A DNA stretch of 64,000 bases, taken from positions 226,001-290,000 of the forward strand of contig JAUTCQ010000013.1 in the NCBI GenBank assembly GCA_030673845.1, written 5' to 3'. The notes under the pieces are model-generated. The model was not told the DNA's origin. It did not search any database and saw nothing but the letters and a program-made list of their open reading frames with translations. Position 1 is the first letter of the stretch; the number at the start of each line of letters is the position of its first letter. Below are positions 19,289 through 23,623 of the stretch, one piece after another. The stretch comes from Verrucomicrobiota bacterium JB022 (lineage in GTDB: Bacteria > Verrucomicrobiota > Verrucomicrobiia > Opitutales > Oceanipulchritudinaceae). The position numbers and the translations under genes were made by a program.

Positions 19289-20002
19289 ATGAAAGATTTC
19301 GTTTGCTCTCTTCTTTTCGCCTCTGTCGCGCCACTGGCGACCAATGCAGCCATTGTCCTTTTCGAAGATTTTGAAGATTCCGCGGTAGCCTACAGCCTGT
19401 CGGATGCGGAAGCTTCCGATGGCCTCAACGACTACTGGGGCCGCGTCGACAGCGACGGCATCAGCATTAGCGCGGCGAATTCCTTCGGCACCCCTCCCTC
19501 GGGCACGAGCTTCTTTGCGGCCGAAGATATTGGTAAGGATCCCGGCATTACGGGCACCGGCTATGTCACCTTCGAAAACGTCGCCATTGCCGGGCTGGCG
19601 GACCTGTCGATTGGCGCCTATTTTGCCTCCTCCTACGAGAGCGGCTACTTTTGGTCCGACGGTGATCTCGTGACCGTGCAATATCAGATCGACGGCGGCG
19701 GCTACACTGATCTCTTTCAGATCACCCACAACGGCTCCGGCCGGGCGGCAGTGGACAGCAATTTCGACGGCTTAGGCGAAGGTACCACCATCGGCCAATT
19801 CCAGCCGTTTTCGTGGGCTATCGAGGGGACTGGCTCCCTGCTAGATTTGCGCATCGGCGCGGCCAGCCTGGGTGGCGCCGTGAGCATCGCATTTGACGAT
19901 GTGAGCGTCTCTGGCACGGCCATCCCCGAGCCCAAGACCTACGCCCTGGTGCTCGGCTCACTCGCCGCGTTCGGCCTCGCCTTCCGGCGCCGCCAAGCCT
20001 AG
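19289..20002 (+). CDS. PEP-CTERM sorting domain protein
   Basis: 237 residues. N-terminal signal peptide (FVCSLLFASVAPLATNAA), then a beta-rich, Gly/Asp/Ser-rich extracellular region that fits a lectin-like or jellyroll domain, ending with the exosortase signal: Pro-Glu-Pro in IPEPKTYALVLG, a short hydrophobic helix and the basic tail FRRRQA. Such proteins are processed by exosortase and exported to the surface or the exopolysaccharide matrix. It is monocistronic, with a 187-base AT-richer upstream gap and a terminator 30 bases after the stop. Ligand unknown. Confidence 0.9.
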   Translation: MKDFVCSLLFASVAPLATNAAIVLFEDFEDSAVAYSLSDAEASDGLNDYWGRVDSDGISISAANSFGTPPSGTSFFAAEDIGKDPGITGTGYVTFENVAIAGLADLSIGAYFASSYESGYFWSDGDLVTVQYQIDGGGYTDLFQITHNGSGRAAVDSNFDGLGEGTTIGQFQPFSWAIEGTGSLLDLRIGAASLGGAVSIAFDDVSVSGTAIPEPKTYALVLGSLAAFGLAFRRRQA

Positions 20003-20031
20003 TCGACCACAATCGGTGAGCTATACTTTGA

Positions 20032-20062
20032 GCCCGCGAAGGATTGCTTCGCGGCTTTTTTA
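20032..20062 (+). terminator. intrinsic terminator of the PEP-CTERM gene
   Basis: Stem CCGCGAAG (20034-20041) with CTTCGCGG (20047-20054), 5-base loop, followed by a run of six T. Confidence 0.85.
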
Positions 20063-20063
20063 G

Positions 20064-20327
20064 GCGGCCTCCAGCAAATCCGAGCTGGAAGCTGACGATG
20101 TCGACGGTTCGGTCGACTTCAACGGTACCACCTTCAAGCTCAACGCCGCCTACTTCATCACCAACGCCCTGTCGGTCGGTGGCGATTTCAACTACCGCCC
20201 CTGTGCTTAGGTGCGGATGAGGGGCTACAACTACGTCATGACGGGCGATGTGGGCTATCTGGACGACGTGACGGCCAAGGGCTTTACCTTCAGCCTCGGC
20301 CTGACGGTGTTCTTCTTCGGCAATTAA
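20064..20327 (+). pseudogene. remnant of an outer-membrane beta-barrel protein
   Basis: One reading frame spells alternating hydrophobic strands typical of a small opacity-protein-like barrel: VDFNGTTFKLNAAYFITNALSVGG, then after an in-frame TAG (20208-20210) GYNYVMTGDVGYLDD and the closing strand FTFSLGLTVFFFGN ending at TAA 20325. There is no start, no signal peptide and an internal stop, so only the C-terminal part survives. A good intrinsic terminator just downstream is the kind a once-intact gene would keep. Identity with a specific porin family cannot be claimed. Confidence 0.65.
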
Positions 20328-20365
20328 GCCGCCTAAAGTTAGGATCTGCCCTTTAAAAGCCTTTT

Positions 20366-20400
20366 AGCCCGTTCGCTGGTCGCGGACGGGCTTGTTTGTT
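20366..20400 (+). terminator. intrinsic terminator after the barrel remnant
   Basis: Stem AGCCCGT (20366-20372) with ACGGGCT (20386-20392), plus inner CGC/GCG pairing, followed by TGTTTGTTTA. It points away from the convergent regulator gene. Confidence 0.75.
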
Positions 20401-20421
20401 TAGTGCGATCTGTGCGTGGCT

Positions 20422-21069
20422 TTACAGCGACGCGGCAGGCTTGACGAGTCCGAACTGGATCGAGGCGCGGGTGAGGCCAGCCACATTGTGCACCTTCAGC
20501 TTTTGCATCAGGTGTGTGCGGTGGACGTCGGCCGTGCGCACGGAGATGCTCAACTTGGAGGCAATCTCCTTGGTCGTATGGCCTTCTCCAATCAGCTGCA
20601 GCACCTCGCGCTCACGCGTGGTGAGGCTCTCCAGGCTGCCGTCGGAAGGCTGCACGCTGAGCAGCTCCGGCATGCGGCGCAGGATTTCGGGGCTGTAATA
20701 CGATTGGCCCGAGGCGACCGACTTGAGGGCCTTGCGCATTTCTTCGAGGCCGGCGGTCTTTTCGATGATGCCGTCGGCTTTCGACAGCAATACCCGCTTG
20801 ATGCGTGCGAGGTTGAAGATGCCGCTCACCACGAGGATCCGGATCTCCGGGCGGTCGGCCTTCAGGCGCTGCACGATCTCCATCCCATTGAGCCCTGGCA
20901 GATGCAGGTCGCAGATGAGGACGTCGGGTTTCTTCAGTTGGCATTGGCGGAGGCCTTCGGTGCCATCGCCATGAGCACCGACCACTTCGAGGTCGATCTC
21001 AGTCTCGATCAAGCCCGACAGCAGATCACACAATAGCTTGTCGTCTTCTATGATGTAGACTGTTTGCAT
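20422..21069 (-). CDS. NarL/FixJ-type response regulator
   Basis: 215 residues. Receiver domain with acidic pair at 8-10 (IIEDD), phosphoacceptor Asp54 in ICDLHLPG, and Lys near 102 (EKTAG). A LuxR-type DNA-binding domain follows (LTTREREVLQLIGEGHTTKE, then IASKLSISVRTADVHR). ATG at 21069 is chosen because GAAGGAG lies 11 bases upstream and the receiver's first strand starts immediately after; the longer in-frame extension is not conserved-looking. No kinase is adjacent. Target genes are unknown; the two small peptide genes upstream on the same strand are separated from it by a terminator. Confidence 0.92.
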   Translation of the reverse strand: MQTVYIIEDDKLLCDLLSGLIETEIDLEVVGAHGDGTEGLRQCQLKKPDVLICDLHLPGLNGMEIVQRLKADRPEIRILVVSGIFNLARIKRVLLSKADGIIEKTAGLEEMRKALKSVASGQSYYSPEILRRMPELLSVQPSDGSLESLTTREREVLQLIGEGHTTKEIASKLSISVRTADVHRTHLMQKLKVHNVAGLTRASIQFGLVKPAASL

Positions 21070-21165
21070 TCCAGGGTTTGCTCCTTCGACCGGGGGAATT
21101 CCCAGTAGTTCCAACTGTAATATTACGGCAGCAACGCAAGTAAATTTACCAGCTCTTGCCAGAAA

Positions 21166-21201
21166 ATGCAAAGGGCGGATAGGTCAAAGACCTATCCGCC
21201 C
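21166..21201 (-). terminator. strong hairpin terminator after small gene 1
   Basis: Perfect 13-bp stem GGGCGGATAGGTC (21173-21185) with GACCTATCCGCCC (21189-21201) and a 3-base loop, 39 bases after the stop of the peptide gene. A short T-rich tract follows on the minus strand. The twin gene upstream has a matching hairpin. Confidence 0.8.
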
Positions 21202-21239
21202 CAGTTTTATTTCTAGTTTAGCTTAGGATGTTCCCGTGA

Positions 21240-21377
21240 TTAGCGGAAACGGAAACCCGTCCAGGAACCCCCGGTGTAGGAGGACACGGAGCTGAGGCTG
21301 AGCGGTTGACGACGCACCAGCGGCTTCGCGGGACGAGACTCCTTATGATTACGGATCGCAGTGTTTTGCGTATTCAT
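21240..21377 (-). CDS. small 45-residue protein, copy 1 of a tandem pair
   Basis: 45-residue product rich in Arg, Ser and Thr: starts MNTQNTAIRNHKE and ends GGSWTGFRFR. It aligns without gaps to the 45-residue product encoded 243 bases upstream on the same strand: both have Ile8-Arg9, Lys12, Leu20, Gly36, Trp39-Thr40 and a C-terminal Arg. The 3' untranslated regions (AAACTAGAAATAAAACTGGGG versus AAAATAGAAAATAAACGGGG, both read on the minus strand) and terminators are also alike, which supports two real duplicated genes. No signal peptide or membrane span. Possible promoter on the minus strand: TTGCTT and TAATAC with 18-base spacing near 21455-21485. No family recognised; function unknown. Confidence 0.6.
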   Translation of the reverse strand: MNTQNTAIRNHKESRPAKPLVRRQPLSLSSVSSYTGGSWTGFRFR

Positions 21378-21553
21378 TGTCTGTGTTGGTAGATGACCGG
21401 AAAAATTTCCCGTCAAAAGTCTCTTTCCGTAATCTTTCTTAAAGAACTGACACGAACGTATTACGCCCGGGTGAAAAATGCAAGCAAAATCCGAGAAAAT
21501 CGTTGACACTTTTGATCTGATCTCGTTTTAGCCGCCAAAATAGCGGTACCGCA

Positions 21554-21587
21554 GACAAAGGGCGGGCAGATTTTGGTCTGCCCGCCC
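21554..21587 (-). terminator. hairpin terminator after small gene 2
   Basis: 11-bp stem GGGCGGGCAGA (21560-21570) with TCTGCCCGCCC (21577-21587), 6-base loop, 33 bases after the stop; short T run on the minus strand. Same layout as the hairpin behind copy 1. Confidence 0.8.
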
Positions 21588-21619
21588 CGTTTATTTTCTA
21601 TTTTATCGTGTAGGTACCC

Positions 21620-21757
21620 TTACCGGAGCTTGGCGAACGTCCAGGCCGTCCCGATGCGGTTCGACTTGGTGAGCGCTTTCCAGGTCTCGGCCAGGGCCAG
21701 TTGCTTGGTCGCACTAGCTGCTTTCTGGTCGCGGATCCGAGGTGTGCGCGGTGTCAT
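21620..21757 (-). CDS. small 45-residue protein, copy 2 of a tandem pair
   Basis: 45 residues, starting MTPRTPRIRDQK and ending GTAWTFAKLR, strongly basic. A clear ribosome-binding site AGGAAG sits 6 bases before the ATG at 21757, which rejects the longer in-frame upstream extension. Length is identical to copy 1 and key residues coincide (Ile8, Arg9, Lys12, Leu20, Gly36, Trp39, Thr40). Independent transcription is suggested by its own terminator. The basic, Trp-containing composition would fit a nucleic-acid- or ribosome-associated peptide, but that is speculation. Confidence 0.62.
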   Translation of the reverse strand: MTPRTPRIRDQKAASATKQLALAETWKALTKSNRIGTAWTFAKLR

Positions 21758-22129
21758 TTTTCGCTTCCTGGGTTGGAATGGCGGGCTGATTCCCGCCAAA
21801 GACCGGACCCGAACCGCGGAAAGAACTGGTGCCAAGCTAGCCGGAGGGACGTTTTATTGCAAGCATGGCCGCCTTTTAGGGCTCGGTTACGGCGCTCGGT
21901 AGGTTGTTTTACGTATGCACTCGTGGAATAGACCCAGAATCGGGAGCGTAATCCGCTATCTTTGGCATGATGGTTAGGCTTATGCCTGATCCGCAGGATA
22001 ACAGGATAGCGTAAGTGTAATTGGCGCTTGCGTCTAATCCAGATACCCTCCTGAAGACGAGCAACTTACGCAGCAAGTTACGCGATTCCACGAATAGTTT
22101 GGAAGACAATAAGCGAGTATTCTAGGATC
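21758..22129. other. 372-base gap: leader of small gene 2, otherwise unassigned
   Basis: The left end holds the AGGAAG ribosome-binding site (complement of 21764-21769) of the second small gene. The rest is AT-richer than the neighbourhood and has no convincing reading frame of coding quality; a small hairpin (AGGCTTATGCCT near 21975) and a weak AGGA before the ATG at 22130 are all I can point to. Confidence 0.5.
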
Positions 22130-22588
22130 ATGGCAACAACCCTGCGATTCCTGGTCTGCTTCTTCTCCATCCTCTGTGGCACCCAATTGACTTTCGCAGG
22201 TGCGCCCGTCTCCTCCGTCTCGCCCGAGCAAGCTCTGAGCGATGCCGAGCAACTGGCGAGCCTCCGCCCCGACTGGAGCGTGTTTCAGGCCGCCGGTAAT
22301 TCGATGGAGCCTTTTTTCGGCAGCAACTCGCTGCTGATCGTGCAAGCGGTTGACACTGCGAGCCTGCGCCCCGGCATGATCGCTGTCTACCGCGACGCCG
22401 AAGGCGATCTGGTCGGCCACCAAGTGGTGAGCATTGGCGCTGAGATCCTGGCCAAGGGCGCCAACAATGCGGTGATCGACCCGACCGTCGTCCGCGCCGA
22501 CAACCTGGTGGGCATCGTGGTGGGCATGCTCCACGCCGCCGATACTCAGACGACCGCCCTGCAAGTCGTCCACGGGAAGCGCTACTAG
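22130..22588 (+). CDS. exported S24/S26-like serine peptidase-fold protein
   Basis: 152 residues. Signal peptide (FLVCFFSILCGTQLTFAG), then a signal-peptidase/LexA-type fold: GNSMEPFFGSNSLLIV gives the nucleophile Ser58 of the GxSMxP motif, and RPGMIAVYRDAEGDLVGHQVV places His97 where SipW/ER-type (S26B) signal peptidases have His in place of the bacterial Lys. VRADNLVGIVVG is the closing strand. Unlike leader peptidase it has a cleavable-looking N-terminus, not a membrane anchor. A lipoprotein with the same fold is encoded convergently downstream. Substrate unknown; it could also be a non-catalytic relative. Confidence 0.72.
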   Translation: MATTLRFLVCFFSILCGTQLTFAGAPVSSVSPEQALSDAEQLASLRPDWSVFQAAGNSMEPFFGSNSLLIVQAVDTASLRPGMIAVYRDAEGDLVGHQVVSIGAEILAKGANNAVIDPTVVRADNLVGIVVGMLHAADTQTTALQVVHGKRY

Positions 22589-22635
22589 CCTTTAGCAGAC
22601 AGAGACAAGACAGATAGACAGAATCGTTGTTGCCG

Positions 22636-22670
22636 AAAAGGGCCGGTATCGCAGCCGGCTCTTTTCTTTT
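22636..22670. terminator. shared terminator between two convergent peptidase-fold genes
   Basis: Stem AAAAGGGCCGG (22636-22646) with CCGGCTCTTTT (22655-22665), one G-U pair; T-rich on the plus strand and usable on both strands. Confidence 0.75.
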
Positions 22671-22698
22671 GACTGCGGGAAGGGCCCGCTAAGGCCGC

Positions 22699-23157
22699 TC
22701 AGGGCGCCGTGGTGGGCGTATTGGTGTAGAGCACGGTATAGACGACGCCGATGAGGTTATCGGGCGTCACATACTCATCGTCGAGCGTGCGGTTGTTATC
22801 GCCCATCGCGATCCAGCCTTTGGGCGAGCGCTTGAGCAGCCGGTGCGTCACGATCTTGTTCTGTGCGTTGCGGTAGGCCACCACCATCTCGGCCTCCAGG
22901 TCTTCAAAGGCGATGGGGGCGTAGACGATGACGGTGTCTTCGCCGTAGAGCGGCATCATGGAGGTGCCGCCGCCGAGGACGGAGGAGCGCCCTTCCCCAC
23001 CCTGCTCCACACGCTTGGCCGCCACGATGGCCTGCCGTACGGTGGTGGGCGAGGTGGGCGGTGGCGTGGCCTGGCTGCCGGTGGTTTCGCAGCCGGCGAG
23101 GGCCAGCAGCGCGATTGCAGGCAGGGAGGCAAAAAAAGACCGATGCTCGGAAGCCAT
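22699..23157 (-). CDS. lipoprotein with S26B-like signal peptidase fold
   Basis: 152 residues. Lipobox LALAGC places the lipidated Cys at 23. Ser66 lies in GTSMMPLYGEDTVIVYAP; MVVAYRNAQNKIVTHRLLKR puts His105 at the general-base position of the Ser-His signal peptidases; GDNN at 119-122 and Asp127 in LDDEYV complete the S26 pattern, followed by DNLIGVVYTV. All catalytic-type residues are present, so activity at the outer face of a membrane is plausible. The ATG at 23157 sits in the apical loop of the atp operon terminator hairpin, and the hairpin's T run encodes the start of the signal peptide. No alternative start precedes the lipobox. Confidence 0.75.
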   Translation of the reverse strand: MASEHRSFFASLPAIALLALAGCETTGSQATPPPTSPTTVRQAIVAAKRVEQGGEGRSSVLGGGTSMMPLYGEDTVIVYAPIAFEDLEAEMVVAYRNAQNKIVTHRLLKRSPKGWIAMGDNNRTLDDEYVTPDNLIGVVYTVLYTNTPTTAP

Positions 23158-23175
23158 CGCTTCTGAACATCGGTC
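23131..23175 (-). terminator. atp operon terminator overlapping the next gene's start
   Basis: On the minus strand GACCGATG (23175-23168) pairs with CATCGGTC (23145-23138), with an inner GAAGC/GCTTC helix and a 4-base apical loop, followed by seven T (23137-23131). The loop contains the ATG of the lipoprotein gene. Confidence 0.85.
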
Positions 23176-23203
23176 GATTGCGGAAATCCTTTACGCAGTA
23201 GGG

Positions 23204-23623
23204 CTACGAGCGCTTGCTCTCGGCCACGATCTTTTGGACGACTGCGAAGCGGGCCTTGGTCTCGAGCTCTTCGAGCACGGCCGGGTCTTCGCCGGAGGTG
23301 CGGGCCTCGGTGAGGGCTTGCTCGGCATCCAGGCGCGCGCGTTCGAGCACGCTGGCGTCGATGGCCTTCACTTCGATGGCGGCCTCGGTCAGCACGCGCA
23401 CTTCGTCGCCGATGACTTCGATGAAGCCTTTGTCGATGGCGATGGACTCGGAGCCTTGGCCCTGGAAGTAGCGCAGCTCACCCGGTTCGATCATGGTGAG
23501 CAGCGGGATGTGGCCCGGCAGCACGTCGATCTCGCCGCCCTCTTCGGTGGGCAGCACCACGTGGTCCACCATACTGCTGAAGACGAGGCGTTCGGGGGTG
23601 ACGATTTCGAGCTTGAGCGGCAT
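23204..23623 (-). CDS. atpC: F1 ATP synthase epsilon subunit
   Basis: 139 residues. N-terminal beta sandwich with KLEIVTPERLVFSSMVDHVVLPTEEGGEIDVLPGH, cut here at FSSMVDHVVLPTEEGG and IDVLPGHIPLLT, then the two-helix C-terminal domain (EQALTEARTSG). Part of the central stalk, coupling rotation to catalysis and restraining ATP hydrolysis. Last gene of the atp operon, 4 bases after atpD; the operon's terminator lies 29 bases downstream. Confidence 0.96.
   Translation of the reverse strand: MPLKLEIVTPERLVFSSMVDHVVLPTEEGGEIDVLPGHIPLLTMIEPGELRYFQGQGSESIAIDKGFIEVIGDEVRVLTEAAIEVKAIDASVLERARLDAEQALTEARTSGEDPAVLEELETKARFAVVQKIVAESKRS

Follow-up and report, generated by a model that had tools for sequence, protein, structure and literature searches.

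The nearest known kind of control to the one proposed here is the action of Nus factors on genes other than rRNA operons in gamma-proteobacteria (PMC5725501). Baniulyte et al. (2017) report boxA control of the non-rRNA genes suhB, rpsJ/nusE and prsA and of a ParE-like toxin gene, and use GYTCTTTAANA as the boxA string for gamma-proteobacteria. The genes analyzed in this study, which we call units, are likewise protein genes whose 5' UTR holds a putative boxA core, and this core is the same as in rRNA leaders of the same bacteria. Compared with the genes reported there, the units differ in phylum (they belong to Opitutales), in encoding an unnamed protein of 41-49 residues that is no known Nus factor, in the position of the putative boxA (69-105 nt before ATG across units) and in having a terminator of their own.

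The MISL RNA (RF03079) and tmRNA (RF00023) genes of the same bacteria resemble the units in having a TTGAC promoter followed by GTTCTTT, and CAGTTCTTT occurs in MISL RNA as it does in several units; those genes encode structured RNAs, however, whereas the units encode proteins. In size and basicity the unit products are like bTHX and bS22/Sra, which we take to be small basic ribosomal or ribosome-associated proteins, although a profile search of PDB chains showed no sequence similarity to them. The dual-function small RNAs SgrS/SgrT and SR1 presumably share with the units a short monocistronic transcript, a small ORF and a strong terminator, but neither a conserved RNA structure nor a region for pairing was identified in the units. 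The protein family and the phylum are new here, as is the grouping with tmRNA and MISL RNA, and within the literature library searched no paper joined Verrucomicrobia with boxA, or Puniceicoccaceae with 'small protein'. Proteins under 50 residues are easily missed in annotation, and in this case genome comparison alone yields a family under selection together with a clue to its use, namely the leader signal common to the unit genes, rRNA, tmRNA and MISL RNA.

A tandem pair of units in the window

The window, by which we mean the whole stretch of 64 kb that was analyzed, contains two adjacent units, A and B, with the following features:

21857..21862, minus strand: putative -35 of unit A, TTGCAA (by eye)
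21834..21839, minus strand: putative -10 of unit A, TAGCTT, after a 17-bp spacer (inferred by eye)
21820..21826, minus strand: putative boxA core GTTCTTT of unit A (sequence match)
21620..21757, minus strand: gene A, 45-residue basic protein, pI 11.8, with a counterpart at the matching place in a genome of the same genus
21557..21600, minus strand: TAGAAA stretch and intrinsic terminator of unit A, 11-bp stem GGGCGGGCAGA, then TTT (fold z-score -4.0)
21478..21483, minus strand: putative -35 of unit B, TTGCAT (by eye)
21455..21460, minus strand: putative -10 of unit B, TACGTT, after a 17-bp spacer (inferred by eye)
21441..21447, minus strand: putative boxA core of unit B, where GTTCTTTAAGA fits the published string GYTCTTTAANA (string from PMC5725501)
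21240..21377, minus strand: gene B, 45-residue basic protein, pI 12.0, 67% identical over 45 residues to B' of the same genus
21170..21215, minus strand: TAGAAA stretch and intrinsic terminator of unit B, 13-bp stem GGGCGGATAGGTC, then TTT (fold z-score -5.9)

The preliminary description of this DNA recognized two minus-strand genes of exactly 45 residues, and both are there as described, at 21620-21757 (A) and 21240-21377 (B), with the product of gene A starting MTPRTPRIRDQK and that of gene B starting MNTQNTAIRNHK. The residues that it listed as common to the two products (Ile8-Arg9, Lys12, Leu20, Gly36, Trp39-Thr40 and Arg45) are all correct; Met1, Lys18 and Ser32 are common as well, and the ungapped identity of 11/45 was reached by only 39 of 100,000 shuffles of B in which Met was kept. 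It had also claimed common 3' sequence and a separate terminator for each gene, and a TAGAAA stretch, a GGGCGG hairpin and TTT do follow both A and B; on both strands of the window, TAGAWA followed by GGGCG within 14 bases matches at A and B only. The proposed duplication of a complete peptide-plus-terminator unit is supported by these comparisons, and the repeat is wider than had been proposed, including the promoter region and a boxA-like leader. The promoter-like hexamers and the GTTCTTT leader element 5' of each gene, lying 69 nt (A) and 70 nt (B) before ATG, had been missed.

From boxA to the T-tract the transcript of a unit would be monocistronic and about 270-310 nt long (from coordinates for A; measured for B, B' and the unit of genome G005), with the ORF occupying approximately half of it. 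Most units show no clear Shine-Dalgarno sequence by eye. A scan with Rfam models over 20000-23500 returned three weak matches and none above the gathering score, and elsewhere in the window it returned one tRNA only.

Relatives and genome distribution

When compared alone with 37 relatives, B showed a sole clear relative, B' in the same-genus genome G001, and A showed none. The pair in G001 is likewise in tandem and stands between matching neighbors, a response-regulator gene and a signal-peptidase-like gene (both named by eye), the second unit encoding a product of 41 residues that begins MNNRKIRNQKR. The duplication is therefore older than the split between these two genomes of the genus. 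In G002 and G008 one unit each was found 5' of the orthologue of this response-regulator gene.

An architecture pattern holding no protein information, GTTCTTTN{205,235}TAGAWAN{3,14}GGGCG, matched 18 times in a search of 273 genomes from the order, 8 times within the family (17 genomes) and 10 outside it, against 2 and 27, respectively, for the reversed pattern (hand count). All eight family matches are units: the four already known in the genus, that of G008, and new ones in G005, G006 and G016, in each of which TTGAC precedes a basic ORF of 44-47 codons and a terminator is present. None of the ten outside matches is a unit and we regard them as background, the reversed control giving 27 there. 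The G005 unit was independently the second-best non-member match of a protein profile (E = 0.0027), the best one (G006:C2:716105, E = 5e-4) not being a unit. The profile with the new members found units in G007 (E = 2e-10) and in G013, G010 and G003 (E about 2e-4), with GTTCTTT in all leaders and a hairpin after the ORFs; matches in G125, G175 and G142 (E from 2.5e-4 to 5.6e-4) had no such unit. Because non-units score alongside units, membership was decided by the context of boxA, hairpin and ORF and not by E.

Of the 17 genomes from the window's family (Opitutales), 11 were found to contain units, 13 in all, as tandem pairs in the window genome and in G001 and as one unit in each of nine others, in which there may be further copies. 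Homologues of these genes thus exist in genomes of the family. No unit was found in G004, G009, G011, G012, G014 and G015, some of which are fragmented or incomplete assemblies; with 6 of the 17 family genomes showing no unit, the protein may therefore be dispensable. Outside the family the profile found no unit, in a weak test that scored at most 26 candidates per genome and took only the best matches on to loci. A relaxed script, requiring GTTCTTT, a basic ORF of 34-62 codons and a hairpin with a T-run, recovered only units from 285 loci (1.07 Mb), and tblastn against plasmids gave no match. Used as a DNA pattern, the motif IR[ND][QH]K gave noise beyond the genus, one match, in G021 (L048), lying opposite a putative kinase gene (by eye).

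The leader element and a census of putative promoter-boxA sites

The GTTCTTT core, and with it GYTCTTT, is present in 13 of 13 unit leaders. Ten of these units were found without requiring GTTCTTT, although four of the ten came from a profile in which three of the nine rows were boxA-found, and the remaining three units were found with a pattern containing it. The chance of GTTCTTT in a 60-nt leader is about 0.002 each, a value with a slight miscount in it, since eight unit copies were subtracted and the loci used contain seven. The full string GYTCTTTAANA is matched exactly in 6 of the 13 units, the other seven departing from it outside the core; this string is the gamma-proteobacterial one, and the local consensus may differ, since the rRNA leaders of related genomes read GTTCTTTGAAAG. 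In the 16S leaders GTTCTTT occurs five times in G001 and three times in G005, and the last copy reads GTTCTTTGAAAGTTAC in both. As GTTCTTT is found in the unit leaders and in the 16S leaders of the same bacteria, we read it as boxA: it is likely, on this resemblance, to be the core of a putative boxA, the NusB/S10 antitermination signal, although it may be another kind of element of the initial transcribed region. The 16S leaders (L148 1757-2340 and L149 2115-2400) contain successive copies of GTTCTTT and apparently several promoters, and two of the copies in L148 come after TTGAC. Two other patterns were discarded: a loose boxA pattern with GGTTACGG gave fewer matches than its reversed control, and AGTTCTTT...GGCGGGAA matched window unit A, the G001 rRNA leader and six other sites and was treated as chance, its GGCGGGAA part being missing from the G005 rRNA leader.

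In the 11 unit genomes the pattern TTGACN{28,44}GTTCTTT occurs at 90 sites, against 69 for the reversed pattern, and the letters of all 90 were recovered within the loci examined. Nine of the 90 sites are units (the four units of the window's genus stand outside the census because their -35 differs from TTGAC), seven precede tmRNA, one of these in the window genome, and five precede MISL RNA. Two are rRNA leaders, with one more in the window genome that is probably an rRNA leader by leader similarity (downstream of it the sequence reads N), and three are tRNA leaders, in which boxA starts 12, 13 and 118 nt before the tRNA. The remaining 63 sites, approximately the control number, have no RNA or unit assignment. 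For these assignments 80 loci were read and scanned with Rfam models; they contain every one of the 81 non-unit sites but G000:C9:5442, a repeat of another site. Among the protein genes, the units are the one seen recurring across genomes at promoter-boxA sites. Following ORFs were checked for 14 of the 63 unassigned sites, those with less ORF cover, and three precede ORFs with exported-protein-like starts, each in one genome (G010:C276, G013:C133 and G013:C372); TTGAC...GTTCTTT lies there at L338 781, L321 1500 and L363 685, respectively 192, 84 and 30 nt before the ORFs. These three may be chance matches or true boxA-led protein genes and, if they are real, boxA is not confined to stable RNAs, a possibility that slightly lowers our confidence in the main reading.

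The MISL RNA genes of five genomes (L330, L331, L332, L334 and L336) have a TTGAC promoter and a CAGTTCTTTGAAAGAACAGGC leader, in which the Rfam match begins 40-117 nt downstream of boxA. TTGAC and GTTCTTT likewise lie upstream of the tmRNA genes (L324, L325, L306, L327, L328, L329 and L333), for six of which (L306 excluded) ARAGORN gives the tag peptide GEQEYALAA or GENEYALAA. Near-identical matches of 56 bases recur at intervals of about 2 kb at G000:C9:3055, 5442 and 7292, all of them within long open frames, and the window genome probably has a tandemly repeated gene there.

Coding potential, selection and the protein product

The 47-residue products of genomes G003, G010 and G013 do not differ at all, whereas their genes vary at 10 coding sites, every one a silent third position; over 130 nt of upstream DNA 104-110 positions are identical. 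In one of the antisense frames, too, few residues would change (1 or 2 per pair), and we prefer the sense strand because the promoter and terminator point there. Estimates of dN and dS were 0.29 and 1.15 for B and B', and 0.12 and 1.49 for the G006 and G016 units. The pair A and A' is weakly conserved, with 11 of 41 aligned residues identical and a dN of 0.70 against a dS of 1.01. The preliminary description had named neutral decay as the outcome that would count against these genes; the substitution pattern found is that of purifying selection, with the caution that copy A is weakly conserved. At the level of sequence, then, the ORF is shown to be under protein-level selection, with the protein as the predicted product, and we infer that copy A is drifting away from the conserved sequence that copy B retains. 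The RNA fold of the CDS is near random for most units (z between -3.1 and +0.4), and the terminators fold strongly (z between -3.9 and -7.1).

The products of the 13 units have 41-49 residues and a pI of 11.4-12.0, each containing 8-12 Lys and Arg against 1-3 Asp and Glu. No hydrophobic stretch, signal peptide or export signal was seen in them by eye; uncharged residues extend furthest in B and B', over a run of 19 that is rich in Ser, Thr and Gly. The claim that the proteins belong to no known family holds for Pfam, NCBIfam, PHROGs and PDB: comparison of 11 members gave best E values of 0.079 (Pfam), 0.023 (NCBIfam) and 0.095 (PHROG), from one member each and none convincing, and the profile of these members gave three matches among PDB chains (best E = 1.5), none of them ribosomal. 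The AlphaFold model was poor, with no confident fold (pLDDT 59.5, pTM 0.13).

Function of the units

The reading that we prefer, to which we give a probability of roughly 0.48, is that the units encode a small RNA-binding protein whose gene is transcribed like that of a stable RNA and which most likely acts on the ribosome or on another stable RNA. Each unit would be self-contained, with a sigma-70-type promoter, an rRNA-type boxA near the transcript start, one short ORF and a strong terminator. BoxA would likely load NusB-S10 on RNA polymerase, so that the output follows that of the stable RNAs, and the protein, made in step with them, would bind RNA, its most probable target being the ribosome, pre-rRNA or some other RNA led by boxA; in the window's genus the whole unit would have been duplicated. 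The parts of this reading differ in strength. The gene family and its common leader are well established by the sequence comparisons, a boxA function of the leaders is likely from their similarity to rRNA leaders, and the link of the protein with the ribosome is a guess. Small size, a pI of 11.4-12.0, richness in Lys and Arg and the lack of a database relative fit small RNA-bound proteins, and the PDB profile search found no sequence link to ribosomal or ribosome-bound proteins. A more specific version, which is possible but rather doubtful, has the units encoding a lineage-specific ribosomal protein or assembly factor, absent from the family libraries searched, whose expression is matched through boxA to that of rRNA, tmRNA and MISL RNA; boxA would then mark a stable-RNA regulon of Opitutales with this protein as its recurring protein member. 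If it is true that boxA groups the stable RNAs in this phylum, Nus-factor control extends well beyond rRNA outside proteobacteria, and MISL RNA gains a regulatory context.

The same leader could serve only for high, growth-linked transcription of a basic protein that has nothing to do with the ribosome, for example a nucleoid or polyanion binder. The high pI of all 13 products would suit such a protein, boxA is reported before genes of many functions (PMC5725501), and three unassigned census sites precede exported-protein-like genes; the recurring promoter-boxA sites in these genomes are otherwise stable RNAs, however, and we think this reading unlikely. Still less probable is a dual-function transcript, in which a small stable regulatory RNA is the main product and the peptide is encoded in addition. 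Its monocistronic transcript of 270-310 nt with a stable-RNA style leader and terminator, its weak Shine-Dalgarno sequences and the folding of leader and CDS together, which exceeds that of shuffles in some units (z = -4.4 in G016 and -3.0 in G003), are what one would expect of such an RNA, but the constraint at the protein level is strong and the CDS alone is no more structured than shuffles in most units.

The remaining explanations fare worse. That the products are secreted antimicrobial peptides, or toxins of toxin-antitoxin pairs, is very improbable: short, cationic proteins with a fast-changing copy A, and the boxA reported upstream of ParE-like toxin genes (PMC5725501), would agree with it, but by eye neither a hydrophobic stretch nor a signal peptide is present, no antitoxin was recognized in the loci read, the protein is identical in three genomes and the neighbors differ between genera. 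Leader peptides controlling the downstream response-regulator gene (20422-21069) were suggested by the four genomes in which a unit lies adjacent to the regulator on the same strand. Each unit nonetheless ends in its own terminator, in 7 of the 7 other unit genomes the best response-regulator match lies on a different contig from the unit, and in G006 and G016 it lies behind putative ribH and nusB, in G006 also ftsY and aroB (by eye); given these varied genomic places we regard the unit as an independent gene that does not serve as a leader for its neighbor, and this explanation as hardly credible. The idea of chance ORFs in intergenic DNA draws on the very short frames and on the little conserved A and A' (11/41), and has next to no probability against the synteny, the silent-only variation and the common architecture; chance is disfavored for B and its relatives, and A alone could still be decaying.

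Other features near the units and among the loci read

The surroundings of the pair were read by eye. Convergent genes at 22130-22588 (plus strand) and 22699-23157 (minus strand) encode similar small proteins with GNSMEPF and GGTSMMPL motifs that resemble S24/S26 peptidase domains. At 19289-20002 (plus strand) there is a secreted-looking protein with a PEP-CTERM-like tail, IPEPKTYALVLGSLAAFGLAFRRRQA, and at 20060-20327 (plus strand) short broken frames resemble the end of an outer-membrane beta-barrel protein, being probably a gene remnant. Locus L173 is a CRISPR array whose repeat contains GTTCTTTACAAAATTTCTACTCTTGTAGAT, a repeat that we take to resemble those of Cas12a systems.
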